A stretch of 64,000 bases of DNA, from NCBI GenBank assembly GCA_040755755.1, contig JBFLZW010000002.1:62001-126000 (forward strand). Reading direction: 5' to 3'. Positions 26,446 through 30,430 of the stretch are shown in pieces (the stretch's first letter is position 1; the number at the start of each line of letters is the position of its first letter). The stretch is from a bacterium. Its GTDB lineage: Bacteria > SZUA-182 > DTGQ01. A model generated the notes under the pieces. That model was not told the origin of the DNA and did no database searches. It saw only the letters and a program-made list of their open reading frames with translations. Made by a program: the position numbers and the translations under genes.

Positions 26446-26474
26446 TTGACAAGGGAGTCTAATGGTTGTAAAAT
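26446..26474 (+). promoter_or_regulatory. Sigma70-type promoter of the DnaJ-HtrA gene
   Basis: TTGACA (26446-26451), 17-bp spacer and TAAAAT (26469-26474), giving a leader of about 145 nt. The leader contains a 10-bp hairpin AAAAGGTTGA/TCAATCTTTT near 26519-26543. No heat-shock (CIRCE or sigma32) consensus is evident. Confidence 0.65.
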
Positions 26475-26625: not shown

Positions 26626-29109
26626 ATGATCAAGAAGGATTACTATGAAATCTTGGAAGTCCCTCGGAATGCTGCCCCGGAAGAGATAAAGAAAGCCTAT
26701 CGGAAAAAGGCGCTCCAATATCATCCGGACCGCAATCCGGGCAACCCGGAGGCGGAGGAAAAATTCAAAGAGGCTTCCGAAGCCTACGAGGTTCTGAGCG
26801 ATGCCCAGAAGAGGAGCCTCTACGATCAATTCGGCCATGCAGGCCTGCAGAATTCGGGCTTTACCGGCTTTAACTTCGATGATATATTCGGGAGTGACCT
26901 TTTCAGCAGTTTCGGTGATATTTTCGGAGATTTCTTCGGGTTCAGAACCGGAAGGTCCGGCCGTCCGCGTCCGGCACGGGGAGCGGACCTTGGGCAGGAG
27001 GTAGCGATCTCTTTTCGTGAGGCGGCCTTTGGACTGGAAACCGATATTGAAGTGGAAAGACACGAAACCTGCCCGACCTGCCAGGGGAGCGGAACAAAAC
27101 CCGGCACGTCACCACAGGTCTGCCGCATCTGCGGCGGACGGGGGCAGGTGCAGCGCACCCAGGGCTTTTTAAGCATTACCACCGTTTGTCCGCAGTGCCG
27201 GGGCACCGGTCAGGTGATAGAATCCCCCTGTCCGCAGTGCCGGGCAATGGGCAAAGTACCCCAGAAGAGAAAACTGCATGTCAAGATCCCCGCTGGTGTA
27301 GATAATGGCTCCCAGCTCCGGCTGCTGGGAGAAGGAGCGCTCGGAGAGCGGGGAGGTCCCCCCGGTGATCTTTACATCACCATTCAGGTCAAAGAGGATG
27401 ATTTTTTCTCCCGCAAGGATGACGATGTGCTGTGCACTGTTCCCATATCCTTTGCCCAGGCTGCCCTGGGAGCGGAAATCGAGGTTCCGACACTCTCCGG
27501 GCCGCATAAACTGGAAATCCCCCGGGGAACGCAGAGCGGTACCGTGATGCGGATTAAAAAAGCGGGCTTTCCCAATGTCTACGGCAAGGGAAAGGGAGAC
27601 CAACTGGTAACGATCGTCGTGGAGGTCCCCACCAGTCTTACGCCCCGGCAGGAAGAGCTGTTGCGCAAATTCGACCAGGCAGGGGATGAAAAAAAGCCGC
27701 ATCAGGAGGAGAAACAGCACAAGAAGGGTTTTTTCCATTTTCTGGGATTGTTGTCGCTGGTTTTTTTTCTGCTCCTGACTTCGACTTCCCCGGCCGGGGC
27801 ATCGGCGGATGCTGCCCGTGAGGGTCGCAAGACGCCAATTGTCAAAGTGGTCGAGAAGGTGAGCCCGGCGGTAGTCAATATCAGTACCGAACGGATTGTG
27901 CGGGAGAGAGTCAATCCTTTTGGCAATCCCTTCTTCGATAATTTTTTCGATAATTTTTTCGATACCTTTCCTCCGAGGAGCTACAAGGAGCAGAGCCTGG
28001 GATCGGGAGTTATCATTGATCCCAAAGGACACATTCTGACCAATGAGCACGTTATCCTCAAGGCCTCCAAAATCAAAATCACCCTGGCCGACAACCGCGA
28101 GTTCGAGGGGAAACTGGTCGGTTCTGATCCCCGCTCGGATCTGGCCGTCGTGAAAATAGATTCTCCGAAAAACCTGCCCTATATCACTACCGGACAATCC
28201 GAGGATCTGATGGTGGGTGAAACGGTAGTGGCCATCGGAAACCCTTTCGGCCTCTCTCATACCGTAACCACCGGGGTGATCAGCGCTGTCAACCGCACGG
28301 TAAAGGTTAACGAAGACCTTGTCTACCACGGTTTCATTCAGACAGACGCTTCCATCAATCCCGGAAACAGTGGAGGGCCGCTGATGAATATCACCGGGGA
28401 GTTGATCGGCATTAATACTGCCATTTACCAGAAAGCCGAGGGGATAGGTTTCGCTATTCCCATCGACCGGGCCAAAAGAATTATTGCCGACCTGATCACC
28501 TATGGCAAGGTCCGCAAGGTCTGGCTGGGGATTCGTGTTCAAAATCTTACCAGGGACCTGGCAGGCTATTTCAACCTCAGTCATCCGGCGGCAGGGGTCA
28601 TTGTCACCCGCATCATCGACGGCAGTCCGGCTGAGAAGGCAGGGCTTCAGCGGGGAGACATCATCCAGAAAATCAATAGCGATCAGATCGCTTCCCAGGA
28701 GGTTTATTCCTCGGTTGTGGCCGGATTTACCGCGGACAGTGAGATGAAAATCTCGGTGTTGCGGGAAGGAAAGCCCCTGACCATCGACATTAAACCTGCC
28801 CGGCTGACCCAGGAGATTGCTGAAAAAATTGCCAAAGACCTGCTTGGTTTGACCGTCAAGGGGTTTAGCTCTTCATTCGGGGGAATGGGCGAGCGGGACT
28901 CCGGCGTGGCTGTAAGCTCTGTCCGGGGCAGGAGCCCCGTTGCCAAGGCAGGCATCCAAAAGGGAGACATCATCCGCCGGATCAATGATAAGGAGATACA
29001 AAACCTGAAAGATTTTCAGGAAGTTATCATTGCCAATGCCGATCGGGACAGCCTGCTCCTTCTGGTCCAAAGAGGACCTTATATTTATCCGGTCACGATC
29101 GGTTTCTAA
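26626..29109 (+). CDS. DnaJ-HtrA fusion: DnaJ co-chaperone joined to a two-PDZ DegP-type serine protease
   Basis: A single 827-residue frame. Residues 1-70 are a J domain with the Hsp70-activating HPD motif at 33-35. A Gly/Phe linker follows (75-115), then the cysteine-rich zinc domain (about 149-212) with four CxxC pairs at C149/152, C166/169, C188/191 and C202/205, the last lacking the usual glycines. The DnaJ C-terminal substrate domains run to about 350. Residues 368-386 are one hydrophobic helix ending SPAGASA, so a membrane anchor or a cleavable internal signal. Residues 405-827 form a complete HtrA: triad His475, Asp505 and Ser582 (GNSGGP), PDZ1 about 632-720, PDZ2 about 745-820. Predicted topology is DnaJ in the cytoplasm and protease in the periplasm. 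Upstream GTG/TTG choices do not matter; the ATG opens the J domain exactly. Confidence 0.87.
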
Positions 29110-29368: not shown

Positions 29369-30430
29369 ATGAAGAAGTGCAATTCCCTGGGTCGGCTGCT
29401 GGTAATTTCAACCGCTTATACTGTGCTCTTATTCCTGCTGACTATGACTATCTCGCCTGGCAACTGCCAGGTACCGTCTTCCTACCCATATACCACGTAT
29501 CCTTATACAACGTATCCGACCGGCACTACGAGCGGATATCCCTACACGGTGTATCCGAGCCAATCTGCTACATCTTACTCTTACTCACCGCTGACAGGTT
29601 ACACTGTTAATCCCTATACTCAGGCGACTGCCGCGGTCCCTTATGGGACCACATACGGGACTACCTATCCGCAGTATGGTACTTCCTATACTACGGTGCC
29701 ATCCTACGGCACTTCGGCCTATGGCCTGCCTGTATATGGTACTTCCGGATATAATATCCTGGTGATCGCTGCTCCTTCGAATTCTTATACCAATCCCTTA
29801 TCCTCGTATCCTGCCATAAGTACCTATCCAGGCACATATCCTTTTGATGGCAGAATAGCGGCCATTTATCTGCCGACGCAGAGCACCTATCCTGCGTATC
29901 CGACATACCCTGCGTATCCTGCGTATCCGACGACGCCTGCGTATTCGACCTATCCGACCTATCCTGCGTATCCGACGACGCCTGCGTATTCGACATACCC
30001 GACCTATCCGACATACCCGACATATTCTACGTATCCGACCTATCCGACATACCCGACGACACAGACGTATCCGACCACACCTACCTATTCAACGAGTGTA
30101 TCGGGCGGGTGGAGCGGTTCCTGGGTAAGTAACGGAACCCAGGGAGGCGCTTCTCTTACCCTGACTCAGAGCGGAACCACGCTGACTGGCACGATAAACC
30201 TTACATCTTCGAATGGTCAGGCCAAATTGAACGCCAATGTCAATGGAAGCATGAGCGGTACTACCCTGCAGCTTTGGGCAACTATTAATGGAGGTACGGA
30301 TATCTTCAACCTGAGTATCATCGGAAACATTAACGGAACCGTGCTGAACGGCAATTACCGGATTACCAACAACAGCAGTATCGAGCTGGAATCCGGGACG
30401 CTTAACCTGGTCAAATCATCGCTCTATTAA
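29369..30430 (+). CDS. Secreted Tyr/Pro/Thr-repeat protein with a C-terminal beta domain
   Basis: A 353-residue protein. It has an AAGGAGATC ribosome binding site, a signal peptide ending near SPGNC (about residue 32), and a low-complexity region of Y-P-T, Y-P-A and T-Y-P units up to about residue 245. The C-terminal domain of about 105 residues (SGGWSGSWVSNGTQGGASLT onward) is rich in Thr, Gly and beta strands. The pattern resembles conserved beta-sandwich domains in lipoprotein-like exported proteins, but I do not recognise the family. The 259-bp gap upstream shows no clear promoter. Confidence 0.6.
   Translation: MKKCNSLGRLLVISTAYTVLLFLLTMTISPGNCQVPSSYPYTTYPYTTYPTGTTSGYPYTVYPSQSATSYSYSPLTGYTVNPYTQATAAVPYGTTYGTTYPQYGTSYTTVPSYGTSAYGLPVYGTSGYNILVIAAPSNSYTNPLSSYPAISTYPGTYPFDGRIAAIYLPTQSTYPAYPTYPAYPAYPTTPAYSTYPTYPAYPTTPAYSTYPTYPTYPTYSTYPTYPTYPTTQTYPTTPTYSTSVSGGWSGSWVSNGTQGGASLTLTQSGTTLTGTINLTSSNGQAKLNANVNGSMSGTTLQLWATINGGTDIFNLSIIGNINGTVLNGNYRITNNSSIELESGTLNLVKSSLY
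29880..30085. repeat. In-gene tandem repeat encoding YPTYP/YPAYP units
   Basis: Degenerate 9- and 12-bp units such as TATCCGACC, TATCCTGCG and TATTCGACC repeat within the coding frame, with larger duplicated blocks (ACGACGCCTGCGTATTCGAC occurs twice, near 29929 and 29976). Such arrays expand and contract by slippage, so length probably varies between strains. Confidence 0.8.

Follow-up and report, generated by a model that had tools for sequence, protein, structure and literature searches.

As a rule, DnaJ acts as a soluble co-chaperone in the cytoplasm and HtrA as a separate, exported protease; the question raised by a single gene encoding both of them, found on the 64,000-nucleotide stretch of bacterial DNA analyzed here (the window, from a genome assembly of 5.26 Mb in 88 contigs, completeness 97.6%), is whether such a fusion is real and, if so, on which side of the membrane each half would come to lie and whether the two would remain joined. 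The gene, its parts and its upstream region are laid out as follows:

26446..26474, + strand: candidate promoter from a consensus scan, TTGACA-17-TAAAAT, 11/12, sigma-70-like, 150 bases upstream of the gene
26626..29109, + strand: fused dnaJ-htrA gene, 827 codons plus stop, without an internal stop
26638..26826, + strand: J domain, residues 5-67, HPD at 33-35 (Pfam PF00226)
26998..27630, + strand: DnaJ_C substrate domains, residues 125-335 (Pfam PF01556)
27070..27246, + strand: zinc-finger region with four CxxC pairs, residues 149-207 (Pfam PF00684, CXXCXGXG)
27679..27738, + strand: charged linker and DnaJ tail KKGFFH, residues 352-371, the putative positive n-side of an internal signal; the motif is found at split DnaJ C-termini
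27739..27807, + strand: signal-peptide-like core and c-region, residues 372-394, the AxA site ending at A394
28000..28413, + strand: HtrA protease domain, residues 459-596 (Pfam PF13365, Trypsin_2; residue invariance; Foldseek matches to DegP/DegQ)
28525..28794, + strand: PDZ1, residues 634-723 (Pfam PF13180)
28912..29073, + strand: PDZ2, residues 763-816 (Pfam PF17820)

Taken singly, the two halves are typical of known families, and it is their arrangement that is new to the sources searched. The uninterrupted frame, the complete set of DnaJ parts and the full HtrA with two PDZ domains, all of which the first-pass annotation had read from the letters, are borne out by the Pfam matches and by an alignment of the four fused proteins of the window's family (f1), in which the HPD motif, the eight zinc cysteines (149/152, 166/169, 188/191 and 202/205) and the triad His475, Asp505 and Ser582 are invariant in 4/4 genomes. 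The DnaJ half, scoring 444 bits against the NCBIfam model DnaJ_bact (TIGR02349; cut-off 377) and 477 bits against PRK10767 (cut-off 338), is by these matches a complete type-A DnaJ (J domain with HPD, zinc finger, DnaJ_C, model cut-offs passed) and resembles bacterial DnaJ (type A Hsp40) throughout, from the J domain over the G/F-rich region, the four CxxC pairs and DnaJ_C down to the tail motif, the difference being that its C-terminus runs on into a hydrophobic segment and a protease. The HtrA half (445 bits against degP_htrA_DO, TIGR02037; cut-off 416) is, judged in the same way, a complete two-PDZ HtrA of the DegP/DegQ type, with the triad intact and protease activity predicted; it shares with that type the trypsin-like His-Asp-Ser domain, the two PDZ domains and a signal-peptide-like start, but its signal is internal, lying after about 370 DnaJ residues. 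DegS, likewise an HtrA protease beside a membrane segment, differs in having one PDZ domain and no large cytoplasmic domain, and the fused protein, with its two PDZ domains, scores 251 bits against the DegS model, under the cut-off of 423. An AlphaFold2 model of the fusion consists of two confidently folded parts, with low confidence at residues 82-112 and 353-411; Foldseek matched DegP/DegQ and DnaJ to it separately, and relatives in the PDB were found for each half (DnaJ 6jzb; DegQ and DegP), with none of the chains listed covering both.

The homopolymer runs which the first-pass annotation had flagged as leaving room for a frameshift artefact are indeed present in the joint (A7 at 27689-27695, T6 and T8), and a sequencing or assembly indel in one of them could in principle have joined two genes; such an artefact is, however, excluded by three other assemblies (71-83% identity), whose frames continue unbroken across the joint and make these runs irrelevant. 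The homopolymers differ among the four fused genes, the linker varies from 63 to 78 codons with all length differences being whole codons, and between the EELL and PAVVN landmarks the coding frame holds zero stops in 4/4 genes, against 2-7 in the other two frames, all of which leaves the indel explanation vanishingly improbable. Two ways in which the halves could still be made apart were also considered and rejected: programmed frameshifting or slippage at A AAA AAG (27690-27696), releasing a free DnaJ, finds no such site at this place in the other fused genes, whose other-frame tails also differ, and an independent internal HtrA start has no ATG available in frame from residue 342 to residue 414, the in-frame TTG/GTG codons being at unshared positions and having no evident ribosome site.

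The fusion is, moreover, a trait of a whole family. In a nine-genome sample of the phylum (four genomes in family f1, five outside it), full-length, stop-free matches were found in one other member of the window's genus (G001; 83% identity) and in two further members of its family (G002 and G003; 71%), so that the fusion is open in 4/4 sampled genomes of the family, from three genera, whereas dnaJ and htrA are two genes in 5/5 of the genomes outside it. Their spacing there is varied: in G005, dnaJ ends with TAA and the htrA ATG follows 9 nt downstream in the same frame; in G004, htrA apparently initiates at a TTG that overlaps the dnaJ 3' end in the +1 frame; in G006, about 90 bases separate the two; in G007, one ORF stands between them; and in G008, htrA is not beside dnaJ within its 11-kb contig. 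The reading that the G004 HtrA has no start codon was ruled out by that overlapping TTG (L010; L176:11333-12787), which adjoins an A8 run and could reflect coupled translation or a step on the way to fusion. The first-pass annotation had named relatives carrying two genes with a stop in between as one of the observations that would refute the fusion; such relatives are seen in sister families but not in the family itself, which makes the two-gene state the likely ancestral one rather than a refutation. In maximum-likelihood trees, one per half, the fused proteins of the four genomes group together as a single clade (support 100/99), with G004 as the sister of that clade in the DnaJ tree and each genome's second, free HtrA in a distinct clade in the HtrA tree. 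A single fusion in the family ancestor is the simplest history for these sequences, which most likely arose through loss of the gene boundary in a dnaJ-htrA operon.

Outside the phylum, dnaJ followed by htrA was encountered in G043 (an in-frame TAG between them, two-PDZ HtrA) and in G013/G162 (one-PDZ HtrA), and this order in two unrelated phyla (L191, L192 and L180) indicates that the gene pairing recurs. Across a 386-genome sample of the domain, an uninterrupted full-length protein was present, among the matches listed (at least ~400 bits), only in the four genomes above. Three seeming fusions were opened by hand and dismissed: an 810 aa frame in G162 is an adjacent dnaJ-htrA pair with a stop, and those of 1023 aa in G184 and 940 aa in G146 are long open frames in high-GC DNA. 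A scan of genome contigs excluding the close relatives of the window returned DnaJ genes only, with no HtrA alongside, and the phylum searches around G050 and G106 (four genomes each) returned no fusion. A literature search for a DnaJ-HtrA fusion found none, which is a weak result, as most subscription journals lie outside its coverage.

What happens to the protein at the membrane depends on the joint, where the expectation of a single hydrophobic stretch between the halves was confirmed, no other segment having the hydrophobicity needed to cross a membrane. In the phylum's split DnaJ proteins, the C-terminal tail reads, for example, KKGLFKRLYNK, RKGVFNLFS, KEGFLKRFAQ or KKGFFDRLLHKV, and the fused proteins carry at the same place a tail such as KKGFFHLFV that runs directly into the hydrophobic core and then into a c-region of small residues. 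The KKGFFxxL tail is, therefore, common to fused and split DnaJ, and an ordinary DnaJ tail directly preceding the core implies that it now serves as the basic n-region of an old HtrA signal peptide. The HtrA portion accordingly opens on the hydrophobic signal-peptide core rather than at a free, mature N-terminus, which corrects the earlier statement that it begins exactly at its expected N-terminus. With signal character judged by the (-3,-1) rule and hydrophobicity, the cores of the four fused proteins measure 13-16 residues, the preceding 16 residues carry a net charge of +3 to +4, and the candidate cleavage sites within 12 residues after the core read A-S-A, A-N-A, V-K-G and A-S-A. A strict AxA is, thus, found in three of the four c-regions, against 2.1% of the 12-residue stretches elsewhere in the same proteins, an enrichment that, the four proteins being related, is suggestive and carries no formal probability. 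The dN in the joint is about 0.6-0.8 vs 0.08-0.20 in the domains, and fast nonsynonymous divergence is the usual behavior of signal peptides. The free htrA genes adjoining dnaJ in the sister families encode a signal peptide at the same place. The AlphaFold2 model shows no confident helix there (residues 353-411 have a pLDDT of about 30-41), as expected for a poorly conserved stretch. Given the split-htrA signal at the same place, the fast evolution and the retention of AxA-type sites, the joint has more the look of a signal peptide retained in cleavable form than of an evolved anchor.

The first-pass annotation had favored an intact membrane-spanning machine and offered signal peptidase cleavage as the alternative; its inside/outside layout agrees with the one hydrophobic segment and its basic DnaJ side, but the order of preference is reversed here, with the reservation that the strict AxA is absent in G002. 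Under the uncut reading, the segment would be a signal anchor covalently linking a DnaJ dimer inside to an HtrA trimer or larger assembly outside, coupling chaperone recruitment to periplasmic proteolysis while being anchored in the manner of DegS. All four joints are hydrophobic enough for this, and the single segment with its basic inner flank, as well as the fusion and whole-codon linker kept in three genera, speak for it; the AxA-type sites, the fast, signal-peptide-like divergence of the joint and the two-PDZ DegP/DegQ type of the protease, whose solved relatives form soluble cages, speak against it and render it possible, though rather unlikely. That such a protein would persist as a stable envelope-spanner, coupling the cytoplasmic Hsp70 cycle directly to a periplasmic protease cage in bacteria whose sole type-A DnaJ would stay permanently at the membrane, is doubtful. 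Conversely, the signal peptidase cut might be followed by trimming of the remaining stub by membrane proteolysis, yielding an ordinary soluble DnaJ and HtrA from a near-neutral polyprotein with no function beyond 1:1 synthesis. Canonical halves and a joint whose sole conserved trait is its signal-peptide character would fit that, but no reversion has occurred in 4/4 genomes despite deep divergence (71% identity), and an extra, unproven trimming step is required, making this improbable. Tethering of DnaJ would follow whether the chain is cut or uncut, unless the stub is trimmed, and the only type-A DnaJ of the genome is on these sequence grounds probably tethered to the inner membrane.

The remainder of the genome offers some indication of how this could be afforded. 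No type-A DnaJ other than the fused one is encoded in the window genome, where its PF00684 match is the sole one, and each of the other eight phylum genomes has one full-length type-A DnaJ, next to htrA except in G008. The main dnaK lies on another contig, accompanied by an HtpG-like ORF, a GrpE-sized ORF (217 aa) and a J protein of the CbpA type that lacks the zinc finger; the names grpE and htpG rest on position and on the sequence as read. At L190:6301-9910, dnaK clusters with a CbpA-type J protein and a GrpE-sized ORF, and no type-A DnaJ is among them. A second, free HtrA (41% identical) is encoded elsewhere in the window genome (G000:C41). With both a CbpA-type J protein and a second HtrA present, the loss of soluble type-A DnaJ and of one free HtrA gene could be buffered, and such buffering may have made the fusion tolerable. 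A cell with two membranes is suggested by the divergently transcribed neighbors, whose products are a polysaccharide export protein and a Wzz chain-length protein. Next after the fused gene, in 4/4 genomes of the family, comes a gene for a secreted-looking protein (29369-30430, + strand, in the window; L173:6460-7545, L174:10603-11631 and L175:1584-2540 in the relatives) with long Tyr/Pro/Thr-rich repeats and a conserved C-terminal domain of ~110 residues; it matches no Pfam family over the cut-off and is possibly a client of HtrA.

The reading preferred here, to which we assign a probability of roughly 0.6, combines loss of an operon boundary, export of HtrA by an internal signal, a probable cut at the AxA site and a membrane-anchored DnaJ, with topology, cleavage, tethering and the role of the fusion all inferred from sequence. 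The dnaJ-htrA operon would have lost its boundary in the family ancestor, giving one polypeptide, of which the DnaJ half would be synthesized first and fold in the cytoplasm, after which the internal HtrA signal, its n-region supplied by the basic tail of DnaJ, would enter the Sec pathway in an N-in/C-out orientation and take HtrA into the periplasm. Signal peptidase I would probably cut after the AxA near A394, freeing a DegP/DegQ-like HtrA and leaving the hydrophobic core on DnaJ as a C-terminal anchor. A precedent of sorts for a fusion across an internal signal is the FbcH cytochrome b/c1 polyprotein of Bradyrhizobium, in which two genes are fused via an internal signal and signal peptidase cuts the product into two proteins; its proteins are unrelated to DnaJ and HtrA, and the likeness is a lead only. 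DnaJ held at the inner membrane, and made 1:1 with a periplasmic protease, could recruit DnaK to exported proteins that are still being made or have stalled, while the CbpA-type J protein encoded beside dnaK would be the main partner of soluble DnaK. DjlA of E. coli, a J protein held at the membrane, is known to be able to direct DnaK (PMC11709261), and the fusion would resemble it in this respect; in DjlA, however, the membrane helix is N-terminal and the J domain C-terminal, a TerB-like domain is also present and there is no protease, whereas here the J domain occupies residues 5-67, the hydrophobic segment residues 372-384, and the anchor would sit at the C-terminus of a full DnaJ.

A single translation product with a protease signal in mid-chain would imply that a type-A DnaJ can work while tethered to a membrane, and the fusion would also imply that folding help on the inside and quality control on the outside are produced in a fixed ratio. 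The phylum, furthermore, offers a series of states for a gene fusion across a signal peptide (apart, adjacent, overlapping, in frame with one stop, and fused), and its fused members would provide a natural test of a more general question: does signal peptidase cut an internal signal that lies behind a large folded domain?
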